This document shows positions 175 to 11,510 of a stretch of 11,510 bases of DNA, in pieces. The translations under genes were made by a program, and so were the position numbers. Numbering within the stretch: position 1 is the first letter of the stretch; every line of letters begins with the position of its first letter. A model generated the notes under the pieces. It made no database searches and was not told the origin of the DNA. It saw nothing but the letters and a program-made list of their open reading frames with translations. Source of the DNA: a bacterium (lineage in GTDB: Bacteria > JAJRZV01); contig JAJRZV010000122.1 in the NCBI GenBank assembly GCA_024275095.1, positions 1-11,510 of the forward strand, given 5' to 3'.

Positions 175-2682
175 ATGGCTGAGAAGCTTTTTGGAAGGAG
201 AGATTTAAGAATTGAGTTGATTGCTGCAACTTACCTTTCATCCATTCTGGCACTTATATGCGTGGGTATTTATCTGGGAGCAGTGCTCAGGCTCGAACCC
301 CGTCAGTGGATCATTACTCCAATTGTGGCCGTTCTCATGTTTGGAGTTTTTGCCGCAATTTATGTGCTCAGGATCCTTTCAATGGCGTCTGAAATTCTTG
401 AATACAAGCGCAAGGGTAATGCTGTAAGAGTTGTCGAACTTTCTTTTTCTCTTCCCTGGAAGGCTGGAAAGCTTGCCTTTATCACCTGGATGGTAGGCGG
501 GTTGTTTGTCGCTATTATGCTCGTTGTCACAGCAGATTATACCTTTACTGAAGCGCTTATGGCTTACTACGGTGCGATTCTGGGCGGGGTAGTTGGCCCT
601 GTGTTTGCATATTTCTTTTTCAGAATGGTGATAAAAGCGCATATCCGGGAAGAGATAAAACAATTTTATATGGAAATGAAAGGCGAATACCCTCCAGGAG
701 AACCCATAAGATTGCGCAGGAAGCTGATGATTCCTTTTACACTCCTGGTGGCCCTCGTACTGGGATTCCTTTCCATTGTTTCGTATGTACTGGCCCGTGA
801 TTCCGTGCTCAGAAACGTGAAAAATTTGGGGCTTGCCAAGCTTTCACTTCTTGCAAAAGATGACGAAGGGGTGAAATACCTGGAAGAAGAAGGATGGAGG
901 CCTTTTTATCTGAATGGAGCGAAGAGCAACAGCAAGCTTTCCTCAGCGGTGTTGTCGGTGCTTAATTCTGCACCTCCGGGTCCAGGAGCCCACGTGGATT
1001 ATCGTACTGGCAATGTATATCTCTGGATAAAGAAGGGAGAAGCAATAAAGGGCGTGTATTATCCGTGGGAACGGATAAATAAAAGAGACCTGCGCAAAAT
1101 CGGGGCGATTTCTGTTTCGGTGATTATATTTTCTCTTCTTGTGGTTTCGGCTGTGGCATGGTTTGTGTCCAAGGACATCTCGGATACCATCACTGAAATG
1201 AAGGAGGGAATGAAAAAAATTACCATTGGAGACGTAGATGTATCTGTTCAGGTGCTCAGTGACGATGAAATGCAGGAGGCGATTGGCGGCTTTGTTGCAC
1301 TCCACAACAGGTTGAAAAAGGTGGTTACTGCAATTCATGAACTCAGCACACGTATCAGTGAGCGGGCGGTCAGGGTTGAGGATGTGTACAACCAGGCGAT
1401 TACTCGACTTTCGAAGAGTCTCGAGTTTTCCCGGAAGTCCCTCGCGGACCTTTCAGCGTTGAAAAAGAACATGGATGAATTGAAGAAGAACACCGAAATT
1501 TCCTCCAGGTCCGTGGACGAAATTTCATCTTCAGCGATTGAGATGGAAAGCAATATCCGCAGCGTGTTCGATATTATCGGAGATTTTATGGACAGGGTCT
1601 CACGGTCCATAGAGCTTATGGAGCACGTTCACGCGGAAATTGAGAACTTGCGGTCGTTTCTCAAGGATACATCCAGCGCGGCTTCTGCAGAAATGGATAC
1701 CGTCAATTCCCTCGAAGAGAGTTTGAAAGAGGTGGAAGCTCATATAAGAGAATCACATGCGAAAGCACTTCAGGTGATGGAAAACGCGGAAAAAGGTTCG
1801 GAAACTATTATGGAAACAATAGATATTATTCGCACCATTAAAGCCTTTGTGAACCAGATGATGGAAGTGATCGAAAGACTTCTTTCGCATTCAAAAGAGG
1901 TTGGGAACATCCTCTCTCTGATTGATGACCTGGCCGATGAGACCAATTTGCTTTCACTTAATGCCTCGATCATCGCTGCTCAGGCCGGAGAGCACGGAAG
2001 GGCATTTGCCGTTGTGGCTGACCAGGTAAGAGAACTGTCCGAGAGAACTTCCATATCCACGCGTGATGTCAGGCGGATACTGGAAGATATCATGGCTGCA
2101 ACAAGAAATGCACGTGAAATGATGGAAAAAGGAAACAAACAGGTCGAAGAAGGCGTACAGCGTGTGACCACCATGGAGCAGATGTTCAGAAAAATTATGG
2201 AGAGTTCACGTGAAGCAGCGTCTATTGCCGGGGAGGTACTGAAGTTCTCTTCGTCTCAGGTTGGAGCTGTGTCCAGTTCCTTAGAAAGGCTCACCACAGT
2301 AATGAAGTTGATGTCTGATGCCAGCGCGGCTATTGAGGACCTCTCGACAAACGCCCAGACTCTTCACCAGGATAATCAGTACATGAAATCCATGATTGAA
2401 AAAGTCATCAATGCTTCCGTAGAGCAGGAAAAGGGCGGAAAGGTTATTGCGCAGAATATAGAAAATATAGCGGATATGATAAAGTTCCTTGATCAGACTC
2501 TACAGAACGAAATAAAACTTGCTTCTTCTCTTCTTTCTTCAGGCCAGGGCACAGAACAGGAAATCAACAGGGCTTTGGAGGATGTAAGGCGGATAAAAGA
2601 GACTCTCTCCGAGATTGCAGCTGAAGCCAGTGCGCTTGCAGAGCAGACAGCTTTTGGAAGGAAAGACGAGGAAGAAGGATAA
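175..2682 (+). CDS. Methyl-accepting chemotaxis protein with six predicted membrane segments
   Basis: An 835-residue chemoreceptor. The ATG at 175 has AGGAG at 164-168, six bases upstream. Hydrophobic segments lie near residues 15-37, 45-68, 100-120, 127-152, 184-206 and 309-330. This looks like a four-helix membrane module followed by the usual receptor pair enclosing an extracytoplasmic stretch of only about 100 residues. A HAMP-like segment follows (about 331-384); it lacks the usual early proline and is degenerate. A long helical signalling region then runs to the end, with its hairpin tip around 583-610 ([16 protein letters not shown], then [20 protein letters not shown]). At the tip, Ile600 and Gln603 replace the usual Glu and Arg. 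The membrane-distal arms are each about 220-230 residues, far longer than in E. coli Tsr. The C-terminus (GRKDEEEG) has no NWETF-like CheR tether. The ligand is unknown; the membrane helices themselves may sense. Family assignment is sure. Confidence 0.95.
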
Positions 2683-2695: not shown

Positions 2696-4801
2696 ATGAG
2701 CATTCGAAAATTTGTACCTATAAGGACCAAGGTTTTCATGGTGGTTATTCCAGGGATGATACTGGTAACTCTGGTGACGGTATCTGTGGTTTTGTTTAAA
2801 GCACGAAGTGCTTTGTTTGTGCAGTTAGAGAGGAGGGCCATTGCGGTTGCCAAAAATTATGCTGCTTCAGCGGTGTTCGCCGTGGCTACCGGAGATACAG
2901 GTTACATTGACAGATTGACCAAGCGTTTTTTCGATGATCCTGATGTGATAGCAGTGGTGATTTCAGGCGCTGATAACAAAGTTGTGTACGAGAATTATCG
3001 CTCGGACGCTTATCGTGAAACTGTCCATCGTAATATTTTTTCAGATACTCAGACTGAAAAGGGTGCATTTACGCGTGCTGGAATCGTGTTTGCTGTAGAG
3101 AGCCTGAAGATTCAGGCGGGTGGAGAAGAGGGCGCCCTGGGTCTGGACCTCGGTGAGAGAAATCTGGGCAGGGTTTTCGTGATTTTTTCCACTACCAGGA
3201 TTAAGAAAGATTTTGCAGCGGTGCTTCTGTTTTCGTTAATCGTGGTGGCTGTGTTTGTGGCAGGAGGAGCTGGCACTGCAGCCGTGGCTATTGGGCGAAT
3301 ATTTCAACCTGTGAGGGAAATTGTTACAGGTTCCCAAAGTGTTGCAAGAGGTGATCTTACTGTGTCGCTTGGAATTGAAACCAATGACGAAATAGGAATC
3401 CTCGCCGAGAATTTTAACCGCATGGTCGAGCAGTTGAGGTCTGTAATTCAGCGCATGACGGAGATTGCCTCATCCATAAGTAAAGCGGTAACTGCTGCAC
3501 GCGAAATTTCTCAGACCGTAACAGAGGGATCTATGAAGCAGAAGGACTACATTCAGGAAATCGAAATAAGCATAGATAACATCAATACAGCGGCACATAA
3601 TATTGCCGAGAATACGGAAATTTTGAACTCTTCAGCGGAAGAGAGCGCATCTGCCATTTTGGAAATGAACGCATCGGTTGAAGAGGCTGCGGAGAACATG
3701 GAGAGGCTTTCCGGTGCAGTGGACGAAACCACGGTGTCCATTCAGGAGATGGCAGCGTCTATTAAACAGGTGGCAGATAATATTGTGAATCTTATGAGTG
3801 CTCTCCAGGATACTGCAAAGGCTGTCGAAGCAATTGATGAAAATATCTCCCAGATTGAACGAAATGCAGACGAAATGGCCAGAAGCAGTGAGCGCGTTAG
3901 GGAGAATGCCGGAGATGGTGAGCAGTCGCTCAGGCGCACGAAGGCACAGATGGATCGTATTAAAGTGACAGTGACGAATGTCAATCAGGCCATAGATGTG
4001 CTTAGTGACAGGGTCGGAGAAATTGGAAAGATTGTTAACGTAATAGATGACATCGCTGAACAGACAAATCTGCTGGCACTTAACGCCGCCATCATTGCTG
4101 CCCAGTCCGGTGAACGTGGAAAGGGTTTTTCGGTGGTGGCCGACAACATAAAGGAACTTTCCGACAGAACCTCGGAGTCCACGAAAGAAATTAACGCGCT
4201 CATAGAGGGTATTAATGAAGAAATGTCCAATGTGATTCGAGCTGTTGCAGAAGGAATTGAGACTGTCGAGGAAGGGGTGAAAATGGTTTCCGAGGCTTCT
4301 GAATTGCTCACCGAGATCACCAGGAGCGCCGAAGAGTCCTACAAGAGGTCAGTGGATATTGCCCGTTCCACCAAGGAGCAGGCCCGTGCTTCGAGTGATG
4401 CTGCCAAGTCTACAAAGGTGATTTCCGAAATGGCGATGGAGATACAGCGCGCCATCAACGAACAGGCCAAGGGAAGCGACATGATCCGCAACGCTGCCGA
4501 GCGGATGAAGGAAATATCAGACTTTGTAAAGGGTTCAATGACCGAATTGCTCAAGTCCGGTCGCCAGGTTGGGCAGCTTATCGAGAATATTAGTGAAATG
4601 GTTAAGTTTATTGCTGAGGCAACAAAAGAGCAGAGCGGACGTACAAAAGTGGTTTCAGAAAAGGTTGACGAGATCCTCAACGTATCGGATAAGAACATAG
4701 AGGTGGCTCAAAATCTCAGAAAGTCTGTGGAAGAATTGATGGACAGGTCCACAGAGATGGGTGAGATAACCAAAACTTTTAAAATCAGGAGGAAAGCATG
4801 A
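2696..4801 (+). CDS. Methyl-accepting chemotaxis protein with single periplasmic sensor domain
   Basis: A 701-residue chemoreceptor with the classic layout: membrane helix near 12-34, extracytoplasmic domain about 35-172, second helix about 173-199, HAMP about 199-250 (Pro205 and the [13 protein letters not shown] motif are present), then a long signalling coiled coil. I chose the ATG at 2696 because GGGAGG at 2686-2691 sits four bases ahead of it. An upstream in-frame ATG at 2615 would add 27 basic residues that overlap the previous gene and precede the membrane helix. The hairpin tip is at about 450-480 ([36 protein letters not shown]) with Ile467 and Gln470 where most receptors have Glu and Arg. 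Paired acidic or glutamine residues among Ala/Ser near 310-350 are candidate methylation sites for CheR/CheB. The sensor domain resembles CHASE8 or single-Cache types (a helical part, then [20 protein letters not shown]), ligand unknown. The C-terminus (FKIRRKA) carries no CheR-binding pentapeptide. Confidence 0.95.
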
Positions 4802-5826
4802 AGGTGAAATGTCCCAAGTGTGGAGCACTTTATCAGATTGATCCCTCTCGGATCGCCAAAGACGTTGTAAAGCTCCGGTGTAAAAAGTGTGGCTCGATTT
4901 TCGGAGTGAGAATAAAAAGAGCAGCTCCGTCTCAGCAACAAGAAGTTAAGGCCCCGCCCGTTGAGAAACCGGCTCCTCCACCTCCACCCCCACGGACGGT
5001 ACTTCTTGGAATAGAAGACCCCGAACGTCTTGAGGAAGTAGCTAAAGCACTTGAAACTGCGAGGTTTACAGTAAAGAGGGCAACCGATGGACTCCAGGTG
5101 CTCGATGTGTTGAGCGCGGAAAAACCGGATGCGCTTGTTCTTGACGTGGTACTACCCAAAGTATTTGGATTTGAGATTTCGGAACTGGTGCGTAAAAGAG
5201 AAAGTTTAAAAGATCTCAGAATTGTTCTTATCAGTACTTACAACAAAGAAAAATACGTTCGGCCCGCCCAGGAAAATTATGGCGCGGATGCCTTCGTGGA
5301 CCCCAAACACGTGGTGGAACGACTACCGGGCATGCTGAGGCAGTTGCTTGGGGACGTCTCTGCTCCTGAAAAACCGACGCCCGAAGCTCCTGCTCCGTCT
5401 CCGCCAAAACCTGAGGCTCCTCAGCCTGCTCCTGCTGCACAACCATCTCAACCTGAAGCTCCTCCGGAGCCATCTCCCCCACCGTCTCCGCCTTCACAGG
5501 TCAGCGCAACAAAACTTATGCAGGAGCAGGCAAGAGAAGTGGAAGAAGAATTTCCCGACCTTTCCCCTGAACAGCGCAAGGAAGTGGAAAAGGCCAAACG
5601 ACTTGCACGCCTGATTGTCAGTGATATTCTTCTATATAATCCTGACAAGGTAGAACAGGGCGTTAAGTCCGGAACTTTTTTTACATTACTCGAAAAAGAT
5701 ATCGAAGATGGACGTAAATTATTTGAAGAACGTGTACCAGAGTGGATCAGACAGCGGTGGGATTTTCTGACAGAAGAATTGAACAGACTTATTGAACGAA
5801 AGAAAGCAGAGTACGGAATCTCTTAA
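4798..5826 (+). CDS. Zinc-ribbon / receiver fusion protein with conserved-looking C-terminal helical domain
   Basis: A 342-residue cytoplasmic protein of four parts. Residues 1-38 are an MJ0042-type zinc ribbon, with Cys5, Cys8, Cys28 and Cys31 as the likely zinc ligands. A proline-rich linker follows (51-65). Residues 66-184 form a response-regulator receiver fold: acidic pair Glu73-Asp74, phospho-acceptor Asp116 in [14 protein letters not shown], and Ser146/Thr147. The usual Lys-Pro after the fifth strand is replaced by DPK (168-170). A second long Pro/Ala-rich linker spans 187-234. The C-terminal domain (about 238-342) is highly charged and helical, with [16 protein letters not shown] at 266-281 and [22 protein letters not shown] at 292-313 as its most family-like part. 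The start ATG overlaps the receptor stop (ATGA), with AGGAGG at 4787-4792, so it is translationally coupled to it. The role is not established; a phosphorylation-controlled adaptor or phosphate sink for CheA is plausible. Domain calls are firm, function is inference. Confidence 0.88.
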
Positions 5827-5849
5827 CATTACGGATGTGTTGATTGTTT

Positions 5850-7784
5850 ATGGATTCTGCGGCACTCAAAGAGTTGTTAAGTAGCAGCGATGAAAATGCA
5901 CGGGTAAATGCAGCAGCCCGGCTGAGATTTTTGCCCCGTGATGAAGCACAGGAACTTTTTGCTGTGGCACTCTCGGACAGTGCAGTACGTGTGCGTAAAG
6001 CAGCTGAGGAGAGTTTCAAAATTGGAATTTCCAGTAAGGACCTCCCGTTGCTTTTTCAATGGCTCGGCAATCATGAAAACGCCAACCTTCGTACGGCGGC
6101 ATTTGAAATGCTCCGCGATTGTAGAGATATTCTGCTTTCAGGAATTGTTGCAAAAAGCCGATCGAAAGATTCAGAAATTCGCAAGTTTTGTGCAGACCTT
6201 TTGTGTGGTGTTACCGACGCAAAAGGTGTAGAGGCTCTCAAGAATCTTCTTGAAGATAGAGATTTAAACGTTCGCGTTGCTGCTGCCGAATCCCTCGCTG
6301 CAACAGGTCTTCCAGATGCAAAAGATGCCATTTTGAAGCGTTTGAAGGTTCTGCAGGACCCGTATGAGATATTTTCTTTTATGGAAGCTCTGAGGTTTCT
6401 TGGTGAAAAGGGGCTTAAACTTCCGGTAGGTAAGTGGCTGAACAGGTTTGTACAGAACGCAGTCCTTCGCAAGGCGGTAATTCATTATCTCGGCTCCAGC
6501 AGAAACGCATCTGCTGTCTCGTGTTTAGCTGACATATTTAACCAGTACCCTGAAGATATACTGGATGTGGCGCGGAGTCTTGTGAGATTGAAAAGCACGC
6601 TGAAGAGTTTTCCTGCCGGGAAGGAACTGGCGCGAAAGTTCAAGCTCAAGAAGAATGTAGCAGAGATTCTTCTTGAGAAAGCAAAAGATATGAAACGTGA
6701 GGAAATCCTTGATATTATGAATTTTGCGATTCTCACTTCTAATGCTCGTCACCTCTTGTCACTTGCGCTTTCACCTGGTTTCACATTCGAGGATCAGAGT
6801 ATAGTTGCCGAATTTTTTGCAACAGCAGGCCCATCAGCTCTCCAATGGGCGGAAGAGAGAACCGATATGCTCAGTCCCGTGGTGGCAGCAGCCGCGGCTC
6901 TTTCCATGGGGATGATGAAATCGCCGACTGTAAGAAAAAAACTTGTAAATGAACTGAAACATATTCTTACATCACATTCTGTTGCTGATTACTTGCTGAC
7001 TGCTTATTTGCAAGCCGGAAAAATTGCTCCTTCGCCTGAGATTGCGGAACTCTTATGCAAAAAGTGTTCCAGCCTCAGTGAAGAGGCTATGGAAGCAGCG
7101 GCCGAGTATTTTCGAAGTATGGGGAAAAAACTGCGATATTCGCCCAGGCTGTTTAAACGCCTTAAAGAAATATGTACTGGCAGGTGCGCAGTGTTTCTCG
7201 CTTACTTTGTGGAAGGAGGCCCACCTGAAAAGGTGAGAGAGGCACTGGAAATTTTTCTCAAGCACGATGATCCCGCTATAAGAGCAAAGGCTGTGGAAGT
7301 TCTTGGTCCCTGGATGGAAGAATATCCGGATTCCCTCGCACCGTTTTTTAATGACGAAAATGAAGATGTACGCATCAGTGCTATAAGTTCTATTTCCAGG
7401 TGGAAAGGTGACCAGGCACGCAGGTACCTTGCGTGTGCATTGCGCGATGAAAGCGAGATGGTCAGGGCGAGAGCAGTAGACACCGCTGCAATGATGAAGA
7501 AGTTAAAGTTGAAGGAGAAAATGAATATTCTTAAGGTGGCGTTGAGTGATCCATCTCCATACGTGGCCATTTCTGCTATTGCAACGATTAAGCACATAAC
7601 ACAAAGTCGAGAGGAGGCGTGCTTGAGTTTGATAGAAGCATTGTATCATCCTGTAGAAGACGTGGTTGTTGAAGCTGCCCGTGAGATGAGTTCTTGTCTG
7701 GAACACCCCAAAGTAAGGGAAGCGCTTAAAGAGGCTGCTCAACGGAATGAACGCGTGCGCGCAATTGTGGATAATCTTTTGTGA
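5850..7784 (+). CDS. HEAT-repeat protein (PBS-lyase-like repeats)
   Basis: A 644-residue soluble, all-helical protein with no signal peptide or membrane segment. Repeats of roughly 30-40 residues with the HEAT signature (Asp, Val-Arg, Ala, then Leu) are clear at the N-terminus (about 8-180, for example DSAVRVRKAAEESF and DRDLNVRVAAAESLAATG). They are clear again at the C-terminus (about 458-644, for example DPAIRAKAVEVLGPW, NEDVRISAISSISRW and SEMVRARAVDTAA). The middle, about 185-455, is helical but the repeats are too diverged to count by eye. HEAT solenoids are protein-binding scaffolds; no enzymatic residues are seen. The gene lies 23 bases after the zinc-ribbon gene and before cheR, so it probably belongs to the chemosensory complex, partner unknown. 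The start is uncertain: ATG 5850 is chosen, but TTG 5844 is in frame. A stop at 5841-5843 limits the options, and no strong Shine-Dalgarno site precedes either. Confidence 0.88.
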   Translation: MDSAALKELLSSSDENARVNAAARLRFLPRDEAQELFAVALSDSAVRVRKAAEESFKIGISSKDLPLLFQWLGNHENANLRTAAFEMLRDCRDILLSGIVAKSRSKDSEIRKFCADLLCGVTDAKGVEALKNLLEDRDLNVRVAAAESLAATGLPDAKDAILKRLKVLQDPYEIFSFMEALRFLGEKGLKLPVGKWLNRFVQNAVLRKAVIHYLGSSRNASAVSCLADIFNQYPEDILDVARSLVRLKSTLKSFPAGKELARKFKLKKNVAEILLEKAKDMKREEILDIMNFAILTSNARHLLSLALSPGFTFEDQSIVAEFFATAGPSALQWAEERTDMLSPVVAAAAALSMGMMKSPTVRKKLVNELKHILTSHSVADYLLTAYLQAGKIAPSPEIAELLCKKCSSLSEEAMEAAAEYFRSMGKKLRYSPRLFKRLKEICTGRCAVFLAYFVEGGPPEKVREALEIFLKHDDPAIRAKAVEVLGPWMEEYPDSLAPFFNDENEDVRISAISSISRWKGDQARRYLACALRDESEMVRARAVDTAAMMKKLKLKEKMNILKVALSDPSPYVAISAIATIKHITQSREEACLSLIEALYHPVEDVVVEAAREMSSCLEHPKVREALKEAAQRNERVRAIVDNLL

Positions 7785-7862: not shown

Positions 7863-8747
7863 ATGATTCAGTCTTCTTCTTATCAAAACAGGTTCTCCCA
7901 GAAAGATTTTGAGGATTTAAAAAATTTTATAGAAGAGTGGTGCGGTATTGAGTTCAGCGAAAACAACAGGTACATCCTTGAACGACGCGTACAAACTCGG
8001 ATTGAGGCTTTGAAATTAAAAAGTCCCAGGGATTATTACTTTTTTATTCGCTATTCCCCGAAACGTCACGAAGAAGTTGAAAAACTTATTAATATTCTCA
8101 CCACGAACGAGACGTACTTTTTTAGGGAAAAACATCAATTGAAAGCCTTTAGTGAAGAAATTTTACCTGAACTACACAGGAATAACAGGGAGTCCAGAAG
8201 TTTACGCGTCTGGTCCGCGGGATGTTCCACAGGAGAGGAGCCTTACACCATCGCTATTCTTATTATAGAAAGCAAGCTCTTCCATAACTGGAACGTGGAA
8301 ATATTTGCCACGGATATCAACACGGAGGTGCTTCAGCATGCACGTGAAGCTGTTTACACCGTAAAGTCATTTCGAGATACCGAGCAGAGATATCTTCGGG
8401 ATTTTTTTGACAAACTGGATGGCGGCCGTTATGTGGTCAAACCGGAAGTGAGAAGTCTTGTTAATTTTGGAAAATTGAACCTTCTTGATACAGGACGCAT
8501 ACGAATGCTGCCTCGCTTTGATGTCATTTTTTGTAGAAACGTGCTCATTTACTTTACACAGGAGGCCAAGAAAAAGGTGTCTACTGCGTTTTTTGACTCA
8601 CTCAAAGATGGTGGCTATCTTCTCCTGGGACACGCAGAATCGTTAATTAATATTTCCAGTGATTTTGAACTTGTACATTTTAAGAATGATATTGTATACC
8701 GTAAACCCAGGCGGGGGGAGGATGAAGAGACGAGTTCTCGTTGTTGA
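7863..8747 (+). CDS. cheR: Chemotaxis protein methyltransferase CheR
   Basis: A 294-residue S-adenosylmethionine-dependent enzyme that methylates glutamates on receptors, here presumably the two receptors upstream. The N-terminal helical domain spans about 1-100 and ends in the family motif LTTNETYFFRE. The methyltransferase domain begins with the SAM-binding motif WSAGCSTGEEPY at 117-128 and continues with FATDIN, FDVIFCRNVLIYF and the final GGYLLLGHAES motif. The beta-subdomain loop (FDKLDGGRYVV) is about three residues shorter than in Salmonella CheR, as I recall that sequence. This is the form linked to pentapeptide-independent enzymes, and neither receptor here has a C-terminal pentapeptide. 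The start is fixed by a TAG in frame directly before the ATG; only a weak GAGAG at 7849-7853 serves as ribosome site. The 3' end overlaps cheB by 26 bases. Confidence 0.97.
   Translation: MIQSSSYQNRFSQKDFEDLKNFIEEWCGIEFSENNRYILERRVQTRIEALKLKSPRDYYFFIRYSPKRHEEVEKLINILTTNETYFFREKHQLKAFSEEILPELHRNNRESRSLRVWSAGCSTGEEPYTIAILIIESKLFHNWNVEIFATDINTEVLQHAREAVYTVKSFRDTEQRYLRDFFDKLDGGRYVVKPEVRSLVNFGKLNLLDTGRIRMLPRFDVIFCRNVLIYFTQEAKKKVSTAFFDSLKDGGYLLLGHAESLINISSDFELVHFKNDIVYRKPRRGEDEETSSRC
8713..8721 (+). promoter_or_regulatory. Strong ribosome binding site of cheB inside cheR
   Basis: A run of six G followed by AGG lies immediately before ATG 8722. The frame stays open upstream to an ATG at 8659, but that would add 21 hydrophobic residues ahead of the receiver domain, so 8722 is the likely start. 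Confidence 0.7.
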
Positions 8748-9855
8748 TGATTCCGCTTACTACAGACGGGCGATTATCCGGATTCTTGAGAAAGACCCTT
8801 CTGTTGAAGTGGTTGGGTATGCACGTAATGGTCGAGATGCACTGAAAAAGGTCAAACAACTTAATCCCGACGTTGTAATTCTTGACCTTGAAATGCCTGA
8901 ACTGGACGGGTTCTCATTTTTGCGGATTATCATGGCCGAAAATCCTTTGCCAGTGATTGTGGTTTCCTCCTTGAGCGATGATGAGAACGTGTACCGGGCG
9001 CTTGAGATGGGGGCGGTAGATTTTGTTCCCAAGCCTACGAAAAAGATATCACCGCGCATTTACGATATAGGAGAAGAGCTTCTCAGGCGGGTGGCGTTCG
9101 CAGATAAAGTGAACCTCCGTACCCGCGCGGAAATACGCCGCCAGATCGGTCTTAAAGTCCAGCAGGGAGAAAGTCCACCGTCACCAAAGGTCAAACCGCT
9201 GAGACCGATGCTGGAGCTTTCTACCACATCTCTGATACCTGTGGCTATTGGAGCATCGACGGGTGGACCGTCTGCGCTTCAGCAGGTTTTATCTGGAATC
9301 ATCTACGACCGCAATCTTCTCGTTTTTATCTCCCAGCACATCCCACCAGGATTTTCACGAGCGCTGGCTGAGAGACTTAACCGATATTCGGAGTTGGATG
9401 TCAAAGAGGCTGAACATGGAGAAAGGATCGTGGGAGGCAGAGCTTATCTGTGTCCTGGTGGATATTCCATGATGATTGCTGGTGGCGATGAGGCTCTTTA
9501 TGTTAAACTTGAACCTCGTGGGGATGAGAGGTACGTTCCCTCAATAGATAAAATGATGATTTCGGTGGCGGAGGTATTCGGGGAAAGAGTGATGGGTATT
9601 CTTCTGACGGGCATGGGAAATGACGGTGTGAAGGGTTTGGCTTCTATTCTCAACGCCGGAGGACGTACAATAGCAGAGTCACCTGAGACGGCTGTGATTT
9701 TTGGGATGCCGCGCGAGGCCGTGAAATATAAGGCAGTACACAAAATCGTGAGCCTGTATCACATAGCCCATGAGATTAACGAATGGGTGGCAAGGTGGAA
9801 CAGAAAAATGAGCCAGCAAAATTTGGAGGAAAGTGATGGACAGAGAACACGGTGA
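8722..9855 (+). CDS. cheB: Chemotaxis response regulator protein-glutamate methylesterase CheB
   Basis: A 377-residue two-domain enzyme that removes methyl groups from receptor glutamates (and usually deamidates glutamines) when phosphorylated by CheA. The receiver domain covers about 1-115 with the acidic pair Asp9-Asp10, phospho-acceptor Asp55 (ILDLEMPELDGF), a Ser pair in IVVSSLS and Lys104 in FVPKP. After a linker, the methylesterase domain (about 172-365) shows the catalytic triad: Ser179 in IGASTGGPSAL, His206 in ISQHIPPGFS and Asp301 in LTGMGNDGVKGL. Everything needed for activity is present and the length is normal. The start at 8722 puts the receiver at the very N-terminus; the gene overlaps cheR by 26 bases and the next gene by 20, implying coupled translation. 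With CheR it forms the adaptation loop for the two receptors. Confidence 0.97.
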   Translation: MKRRVLVVDDSAYYRRAIIRILEKDPSVEVVGYARNGRDALKKVKQLNPDVVILDLEMPELDGFSFLRIIMAENPLPVIVVSSLSDDENVYRALEMGAVDFVPKPTKKISPRIYDIGEELLRRVAFADKVNLRTRAEIRRQIGLKVQQGESPPSPKVKPLRPMLELSTTSLIPVAIGASTGGPSALQQVLSGIIYDRNLLVFISQHIPPGFSRALAERLNRYSELDVKEAEHGERIVGGRAYLCPGGYSMMIAGGDEALYVKLEPRGDERYVPSIDKMMISVAEVFGERVMGILLTGMGNDGVKGLASILNAGGRTIAESPETAVIFGMPREAVKYKAVHKIVSLYHIAHEINEWVARWNRKMSQQNLEESDGQRTR

Positions 9856-10657
9856 AGATCCTAAGAAAAAAGCTGAAGTTATTCTCCAAATTTTCAAGAA
9901 AGGTGAAGTGTTTGCACAGGAATTGTTGAAGGAGAACGAACGTCTCAGGTACCAGATCATAAAACTGAAAGAAGAAAAGGAAAGTTTGCTCAGGGAGCGG
10001 GGAGGAGAACAGCTTGTTGAACTTCAAAGGCGCATAGAAGAACTGGAGAGAGAAAAACAGCAGTTGCTCAAACGATATGAAGAAGTGGAAAAGGAAAATA
10101 TTAATTTCGCAAAAAAGTATGTAGAAATTGAAGAAGAAAACAACAAGCTTGCAAACCTTTACATCGCCAGTTATCAACTCCACTCAACTCTTGATTTCGA
10201 CGAGGTGATAAGGACCATTGTAGAGATTGTCATCAATCTCATCGGTGGAGAACGGTTTGCAGTGCTTTTGCTGGATGAAAAGGCCAACAGGCTCCAGTTT
10301 GTCGCTGGTGAGGGTGTGTCCAAAGAAGAGTTTCCTGATATTTCTCTGGATGATGAACACCTCATTGCCCAGTGTGTACTTTCAGGTGAGTCGTATTTTT
10401 CTGAAAACCAGGAGGCATCGGATGATATTAATAAACCTATCGTTTGTGTCCCGTTGAAGGTGAAAGAGAAGGTTATAGGTGCTATTGTGGTGTACAAACT
10501 GTTAGAACAGAAGGAAAAGCTTACCGAACTCGACCACGAACTATTCAATCTCATGGCCGCTCATGCAGCTACCGCGATTTTCAGTGCGAAGCTCTACTCT
10601 GATTCACGCAGAAAGCTTACAACAATTCAGGGGTTTATAGATCTTCTGGTAAAGTAG
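9836..10657 (+). CDS. Coiled-coil and GAF domain protein
   Basis: A 273-residue cytoplasmic protein. Residues about 15-108 are a long charged coiled coil rich in Glu and Lys (such as LQRRIEELEREKQQLLKRYE). They are followed by a GAF domain at about 109-254: LHSTLDFDEVIRTIVEIV opens it, then ERFAVLLLDEKANRLQFVAGEG, VCVPLKVKEKVIGAIVVY, and a closing helix ELFNLMAAHAATAIFSAKLY. GAF domains bind small molecules or serve as dimer interfaces; no ligand residues can be read here. There is no output domain: the protein ends in KLTTIQGFIDLLVK, faintly like a kinase dimerisation helix but lacking a histidine. The ATG at 9836 is chosen over the GTG at 9833 because AGGA at 9827-9830 is properly spaced for it. 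It overlaps cheB and is followed 15 bases later by cheY, so it probably acts with CheY or the receptor array. Family sure, role unknown. Confidence 0.9.
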   Translation: MDREHGEDPKKKAEVILQIFKKGEVFAQELLKENERLRYQIIKLKEEKESLLRERGGEQLVELQRRIEELEREKQQLLKRYEEVEKENINFAKKYVEIEEENNKLANLYIASYQLHSTLDFDEVIRTIVEIVINLIGGERFAVLLLDEKANRLQFVAGEGVSKEEFPDISLDDEHLIAQCVLSGESYFSENQEASDDINKPIVCVPLKVKEKVIGAIVVYKLLEQKEKLTELDHELFNLMAAHAATAIFSAKLYSDSRRKLTTIQGFIDLLVK

Positions 10658-10659
10658 AT

Positions 10660-10667
10660 GGAGGGGG
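10660..10667 (+). promoter_or_regulatory. Ribosome binding site deciding the cheY start
   Basis: GGAGGGGG lies five bases before ATG 10673. An upstream in-frame ATG at 10658 directly abuts the GAF gene stop and would place this site inside the coding sequence, with no good site of its own. The shorter start is therefore preferred. Confidence 0.7.
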
Positions 10668-10672
10668 AAATT

Positions 10673-11077
10673 ATGGGGGGGAGCGACAAGAAAGAACGGA
10701 AGATTCTCATTGTGGAAGACTCTCCCACAATGCGTCAACTTATAATTTTCGCTTTACGGCGGTTAAAAAATGTGAAAATTGTAGAGGCTTCCGATGGGGT
10801 GGAGGGTCTGAAAAAATTACAGAAGGATGTTTTTGACCTCATCATTACAGATATCAATATGCCCATTATGGATGGACTGAAACTGGTGAGTATTATACGC
10901 CGGGATGAAATATACAAAAATGTGCCTGTTATCATCATCACCACTGAAAGCGGCAGGGAAGATCGAGAGCGAGCCCTTTCTCTGGGTGCCAATGCGTATG
11001 TGACCAAGCCCATTCAGGCTCCGGAGGTGCTTAAACTGGTGGAACAGTATCTCTCCACCAACCAGAACCAATTATAA
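10673..11077 (+). CDS. cheY: CheY-type single-domain response regulator
   Basis: A 134-residue stand-alone receiver with all key residues: Glu15-Asp16 in ILIVEDSPTMRQ, phospho-acceptor Asp60 in LIITDINMPIMDGL, Thr90-Thr91 in VIIITTE and Lys112 in AYVTKPI. It lacks any DNA-binding or enzymatic output domain, so it works by protein contact. In chemosensory operons this is the phosphorylated messenger to a flagellar motor, pilus motor or another kinase; the target cannot be told here. The preferred ATG is 10673; an in-frame ATG at 10658 would add five residues (MEGEI). The SPTMRQLI segment is common in CheY proteins that accept phosphate from CheA. It follows the GAF gene by 15 bases and is the last gene of the tight cluster. 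Confidence 0.93.
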   Translation: MGGSDKKERKILIVEDSPTMRQLIIFALRRLKNVKIVEASDGVEGLKKLQKDVFDLIITDINMPIMDGLKLVSIIRRDEIYKNVPVIIITTESGREDRERALSLGANAYVTKPIQAPEVLKLVEQYLSTNQNQL

Positions 11078-11168: not shown

Positions 11169-11510
11169 ATGGCTGAACGCACACTTGTCATTGTGAAACC
11201 AGATGCTGTGAAGAAAGGCGTTGCTGGCAAAATTATTTCACGGTTTGAAGAAGAGGGGTTTTCCATTGTGGCACTTCGCCTTTTTCGGCTCAGCAGGGTG
11301 GATGCCCAACGGTTTTATGAAGTACATAAAGAAAAACCTTTTTATGATAGCTTGTGCGAGTTTATGTCTTCCGGGCCCTGTATAGCAGCGGTTCTGGAAG
11401 GAGAAAATGCTGTTAAAAGGGTCAGGGATATTATGGGAGCGACGGATCCGGCGAAGGCCGAGCCGGGTACTTTGCGTAAACTTTACGCCACGGATGTGGA
11501 GAAAAACGCT
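11169..11510 (+). CDS. ndk: Nucleoside diphosphate kinase, N-terminal 114 residues (cut by window end)
   Basis: The open frame runs from ATG 11169 to the last base without a stop. Ndk transfers the terminal phosphate of ATP to other nucleoside diphosphates through a phospho-histidine, balancing the NTP and dNTP pools. Hallmarks seen are RTLVIVKPDAV at 4-14 with the ATP-site Lys10, FYEVHKEKPFYDSLCEFMSSGP at about 49-70, and the GATDPAKAEPGTLRKLY stretch at about 90-106. The window stops within VEKNA, just where the family continues into the active-site His-Gly-Ser-Asp motif, so the catalytic histidine itself is outside. AGGGAGG at 11157-11163 gives a strong ribosome site five bases before the ATG. 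It is a housekeeping gene on the same strand, 91 bases after cheY, and need not be functionally tied to chemosensing. Confidence 0.96.
   Translation, partial: MAERTLVIVKPDAVKKGVAGKIISRFEEEGFSIVALRLFRLSRVDAQRFYEVHKEKPFYDSLCEFMSSGPCIAAVLEGENAVKRVRDIMGATDPAKAEPGTLRKLYATDVEKNA

Follow-up and report, generated by a model that had tools for sequence, protein, structure and literature searches.

The locus raises the question of what output a chemosensory operon might have through a protein in which a zinc ribbon and a receiver are followed by a tail that no domain model covers. In the window, that is, the whole stretch of 11,510 nucleotides that was analysed, an ORF on the plus strand (4798..5826) encodes this protein of 342 aa, for which full-length homologues were found in unrelated families. 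Here we refer to it as the ZnR-receiver-RomX protein. A Shine-Dalgarno sequence, AGGAGG, lies at 4787..4792, and the ATG overlaps the TGA of the receptor gene 5′ of it (ATGA, 4798-4801). The protein consists of an MJ0042-type zinc ribbon (residues 1-36, with Cys5, 8, 28 and 31; 4798..4905; Pfam PF13717/PF13719 and TIGR02098), a first Pro-rich linker (residues 40-66; 4915..4995; 37% Pro, low pLDDT), a receiver domain with Asp116 (residues 67-184; 4996..5349; identified from PF00072, conservation, the model and receiver folds in the PDB), a second Pro-rich linker (residues 189-233; 5362..5496; 47% Pro, pLDDT 47-59) and the tail, assigned below to RomX from profile, sequence and structure matches (residues 263-338; 5584..5811). 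The Pfam scan gave 46.9 bits for Zn_ribbon_4 at residues 1-35 (cut-off 30.3) and 47.8 bits for Response_reg at residues 74-167 (cut-off 30.2), while no model of Pfam or NCBIfam, both of which were scanned, covered the tail. The full-length predicted structure showed three ordered parts with the two low-confidence Pro-rich linkers between them. The four-cysteine ribbon, the receiver with Asp116, the two linkers and the ATGA overlap, as described in the initial annotation, were all confirmed by Pfam and the sequence, and the observed layout is far beyond chance.

The tail had been annotated at about residues 266-313 as a segment with no assigned function. It is a real domain, but this extent was too short, as the tail consists of a domain of ~76 residues (263-338) with a helix N-terminal to it. 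A profile built from an alignment of 19 tails, with the motif RLARxIVSDIALYN, had only one significant match among solved chains in the PDB, M. xanthus RomX (8zna, E 2.3e-24; next match 0.06), and with this match the idea of an orphan domain was rejected. As a single sequence, the tail of the ORF 4798-5826 protein matched 8zna with an E-value of 4e-13 over 77 ungapped residues, 30 of which were identical (39%). The structure predicted for the tail alone, modelled from 48 sequences, was all-helical with a mean pLDDT of 94, and the tail was present in 80/80 full-length relatives; it is thus a conserved domain that is predicted to be ordered, and not the disordered, unconserved stretch that would have spoken against the initial annotation. 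Foldseek with the tail model ranked 8zna first (TM 0.78 by target; next match E 4.3), and VIA-align gave Z 11.8 and rmsd 2.3 over 85 aligned residues (next Z 5.2); no other family in the VIA comparison, which covered 42 chains, came near RomX in fold. Since sequence and structure agree, residues 263-338 are, as judged from profile comparison and a predicted model, a RomX domain. The tail, with no Pfam or NCBIfam model of its own, gains a name and a testable partner, MglA. RomX homologues or a RomX domain family were not found named in the literature that we searched, a search of limited reach that says little.

M. xanthus RomX interacts with MglA, a Ras-like GTPase whose nucleotide exchange it stimulates, and RomR enhances this (PMC9481161). 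In RomR, a Pro-rich linker joins the receiver, which binds RomX, to a Glu-rich C-terminus (PMC12719032). A 2024 preprint, as far as it is cited in PMC12719032 (Dinet 2024), holds that RomR-RomX is not a conventional GEF but an effector of MglA-GTP. As the GEF activity of RomX is disputed, we use the wording adaptor or regulator, not GEF. Besides the likeness in sequence and helical fold, the protein shares with RomX its occurrence in genomes with MglA; on the other hand, RomX stands alone and ends in xIW, whereas here the domain is fused behind a zinc ribbon and a receiver in a che operon, has no xIW end, and its MglA binding is predicted. With RomR it shares the receiver, the Pro-rich disordered linker, the helical C-terminus, a chemosensory link and MglA in the pathway. 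However, RomR ends in the Glu-rich RomR-C, which binds MglC/MglB, whereas the C-terminus here is RomX and a zinc ribbon is added at the N-terminus. Taking the RomX homology and the RomR layout together, the protein looks like a RomR-RomX fusion on a single chain to which a ribbon has been added.

An initial search of ~290 genomes from many families also recovered proteins that share the tail only, namely 86-89-aa proteins, TM-anchored acidic proteins and one 644-aa protein. The RomX domain was found alone, as ZnR-Pro-RomX, as ZnR-receiver-RomX and TM-anchored, which bears out the earlier suggestion that similar segments close zinc-ribbon and other proteins. ZnR-Pro-RomX proteins were identified at loci L174, L176-L178, L181, L182, L185 and L186. 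In L174 (L174:3848-6807), the ZnR-Pro-RomX gene, with no receiver, adjoins an MglA-like gene, and in L178 (3004-5184) such a gene is one gene apart from an MglA-like gene; ZnR-RomX proteins also occur in loci without che genes. The stand-alone RomX proteins that were complete end in xIW in 9/9 cases (L055, L056, L175, L183, L184, L188, L191, L192 and L193), an end that was absent from every fused tail compared with them. Therefore, part of the RomX function may be missing from the fusions, which carry a homologous domain at the C-terminus and are not orthologues of stand-alone RomX. In a tree of 116 rows, whose 77 columns resolve little, the stand-alone proteins, including 8zna, grouped apart from the fusions. 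The xIW end of stand-alone RomX is possibly a docking motif. Its loss from the fused tails might mean that a contact became dispensable when the receiver joined the same chain, which is speculation.

The partner that the tail suggests is distributed accordingly. Among 290 genomes, the RomX domain was present in 45 and MglA in 108, and MglA occurred in 44/45 of the genomes with the RomX domain vs 64/245 of the others (Fisher p 5e-21); the genomes were mostly one per family, so that their independence is partial, and the co-occurrence is partly ancestry. Within the genomes with MglA, the RomX domain tracks the MglAs most like that of the host (29/35 vs 15/73, p 6e-10). The host itself has an mglB-mglA operon, whose MglA is 196 aa long, and two PilT, and no RomX domain besides that of ORF 4798-5826 was detected in its genome. 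FliM was not found in this genome, which is 97% complete, and flagellar output is thus unlikely there. A second MglA-like host protein of 280 aa (L189:3918-4760), 59% identical to MglA, is encoded outside the mglBA operon.

The gene is located within a series of chemosensory genes assigned by Pfam, all on the plus strand. These encode a receptor with MCPsignal and a multi-TM N-terminus (175..2682), the methyl-accepting receptor with HAMP and MCPsignal whose end overlaps the ORF (2696..4801), a HEAT-repeat protein (HEAT_2; 5844..7784) that is an obligate operon neighbour, CheR (7863..8747), CheB (8722..9855), a GAF-domain protein that is a conserved operon member (9833..10657) and a CheY-like single receiver (10658..11077). 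Directly 3′ of the che operon, a nucleoside diphosphate kinase gene (11169-11510 of the window) is cut by the contig end.

With the full-length alignment we collected 80 loci from Geobacteraceae, other Desulfuromonadales, other deltas, Nitrospirota and unnamed phyla. Tabulation of the neighbours placed 65/80 in che operons, in keeping with the initial annotation. In these che loci the gene 5′ of the ZnR-receiver-RomX gene was CheW in 48 and a receptor in 12, and the HEAT gene was directly 3′ in 63/63 where the next gene was visible. The order DUF4388-CheY-CheA-ATPase-CheW-CheW-ZnR.RR.RomX-HEAT-CheR-CheB-GAF-CheY is of the Geobacter beta-group type (Tran 2008, PMC2577667); the downstream half of the host operon matches it exactly, while CheA and CheW are beyond the end of the host contig. 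The che operon regularly includes a gene for an ExeA-like AAA ATPase ('FYGLKEKPFSKTPDP'), for example L040:13682-14491, which corresponds to GSU2221 in Geobacter. The beta-group cluster would be GSU2212-2224 and, by gene content, contains esnB-ATPase-esnC of G. sulfurreducens, at which deletion of esnB or esnC (GSU2222) impairs growth on electrodes (PMC5585712). By analogy with other Geobacter, the G. sulfurreducens orthologue would be expected directly 3′ of the second cheW there. M. xanthus che8 was reported to be conserved in G. sulfurreducens (PMC2330069). However, the che8 locus of one Myxococcaceae genome (L204) has a 126-aa membrane protein in place of the ZnR-receiver-RomX protein, and M. 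xanthus MXAN_4755 was dropped as a candidate orthologue. Two other Myxococcota (L205 and L206) do carry the gene, and its tail has diverged there.

The remaining 15/80 loci, most of them from Nitrospirota, had no che genes, so that some lineages have the ZnR-receiver-RomX protein outside chemosensory operons. Among these, a rhomboid-family gene was upstream in 12 and groEL within three genes downstream in 6, with the family names of the neighbours read by eye from L045. A rhomboid gene followed by the ZnR-receiver-RomX gene, mostly in Nitrospirota and without che genes, was seen at L045, L072, L098, L099, L108, L110, L111, L117, L119, L126, L129, L130 and L136; six of those rhomboid-side genes, also that of L045, are directly 5′ of groESL.

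As to the receiver, the phosphoacceptor position of Asp116 was D in 37/42 homologues, N in 3 and E in 2. The first acidic pocket residue was lost in the same 42, being mostly His or Asn, and the second was E or D in about half; the S/T-region Ser was kept in 35/42 and the conserved Lys in 26/42. In the receiver of ORF 4798-5826, the second acidic position is E and residue 146 is Ser, and the Lys is missing from its usual place. At the usual site of helix alpha-4 the family has a strongly conserved segment, SIYDKTRYKRxPxSLYGADDYIEKHH, and the model lacks this helix, showing instead a conserved basic loop at 146-164, the confidence of the loop being low. The FrzS receiver was among the structural matches of the receiver model in the PDB. 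One family member (L051:9263-10213) has Ser for the phosphoacceptor Asp (VLFSVVLP), so at least one receiver of the family is not phosphorylatable at that site.

The ribbon, with the pattern CxxC-x(19-20)-CxxC, exceeds the curated cut-offs of Pfam and NCBIfam (TIGR02098). A profile of 15 ribbons of the ZnR-receiver-RomX family matched 2nb9 (E 1.7e-11), which has 49 aa, carries the PDB label 'Uncharacterized protein' and is probably the ribbon of ZitP, and also 7zok (E 1e-9), the ribbon of AgmX/GltJ; both share the MJ0042-type four-Cys ribbon with our protein. GltJ is listed among the MglA effectors in M. xanthus (PMC12288465), and is, unlike the ORF 4798-5826 protein, a membrane protein of the gliding machine. 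The ZitP ribbon binds PopZ (PMC5182065). These relatives point to the ribbon as a docking module, whose partner here homology cannot name.

With a recruiting adaptor retained as the best type of explanation and its tail now being a RomX domain, we consider it reasonably probable that the protein is a receiver-gated MglA adaptor or regulator, a one-chain counterpart of RomR-RomX by which the chemosensory array would act on polarity or type IV pili. The basis is the architecture, the homology and fold of RomX, the conservation of the operon, the co-occurrence with MglA, and a host with mglBA and PilT and no FliM. For this protein we infer MglA binding, gating, phosphorylation and output. The RomX tail would bind MglA, either holding MglA-GTP or promoting its formation, with the receiver in cis replacing the RomR receiver that acts in trans on RomX. 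The receiver would gate the tail when the CheA of the operon signals, or would serve as a constitutive platform, and the zinc ribbon may anchor the whole protein to the array, to the pole or to MglA. Rather than flagellar rotation, the affected output would be polarity, type IV pili, or behaviour or growth on surfaces. The operon thus probably talks directly to the machinery deciding which cell end is the front. Counted against this explanation are the degenerate acidic pocket, the missing Lys and xIW end, the che-free Nitrospirota loci, the absence of the gene from Myxococcaceae Che8, the dispute over RomX as a GEF and the share of ancestry in the co-occurrence with MglA.

Some of these points would suit other explanations. 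The invariable HEAT gene, with CheW or an MCP before the gene, and the branching of the fused tails apart from stand-alone RomX, without its xIW end, are what would be expected if the RomX-like tail had lost MglA binding and taken on a structural role within the array, where it would bind the HEAT protein, CheW or the receptor, so that the protein tunes the array. We regard this as unlikely, given that the same family has no che neighbours in most Nitrospirota loci, that ZnR-RomX proteins occur in che-free loci, two of them near MglA-like genes, and that the RomX domain co-occurs with MglA. A phosphate sink or CheV-like protein, whose receiver draws phosphate from CheA in competition with CheY while the rest only localises it, seems very improbable to us. 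CheB, CheR and CheY-like receivers in the operon and the Asp at 116 in 37/42 would agree with it; yet the acidic pocket is degenerate, the Lys is missing here, relatives exist outside che operons, and the highly conserved RomX tail would be left unexplained. The CheV-like identity proposed in the initial annotation was rejected, as no CheW domain was detected in the protein by the Pfam scan.

Closer to the receiver-gated adaptor, and overlapping with it in confidence as a variant, is an MglA adaptor that acts independently of phosphorylation, at which the receiver is a constitutive protein-binding platform and the array sets only the location. Its model is the FrzS receiver, which has been described as such a platform. 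The FrzS match, the predicted loss of helix alpha-4, the degenerate acidic pair, and N or E in place of Asp116 in 5/42, along with S in L051, speak for this variant; Asp116 kept in 37/42 and the S/T-region Ser in 35/42 speak against it, and we hold it to be possible but rather doubtful.

The receiver-gated MglA adaptor bears on the route from chemosensory signals to the MglA polarity switch, which is still debated ground in M. xanthus, and little is known about Che8 function (PMC9040617). A receiver and RomX in one chain offer a concrete output hypothesis for a class of che operons that, with ZnR-receiver-RomX, is conserved in Desulfobacterota, in some of the Myxococcota and in further phyla, and that in Geobacter includes esnB/esnC. 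In the protein, modules known for their association with MglA are arranged in a new way, and the chemosensory operon that holds its gene is widely conserved. More broadly, RomX could be one member of a wide MglA-facing domain family that plugs different inputs into the Ras-like switch; in beta-group/Che8 operons, the array would then control MglA directly, with the receiver-RomX fusion as output protein and no RomR as a separate component. This is a serious possibility, which we put forward tentatively and would not yet call probable.

Other RomX genes have neighbours of different kinds. An RluD-like pseudouridine synthase gene recurs as the 3′ neighbour of stand-alone RomX genes, at L184, L188, L191, L192 and L056, and at L191, HNH-like and patatin-like genes are 5′ of the stand-alone gene (families read by eye). 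At L054 and L058, acidic proteins that are TM-anchored and carry the RomX domain at their C-terminus are encoded near purL/purQ-like genes.
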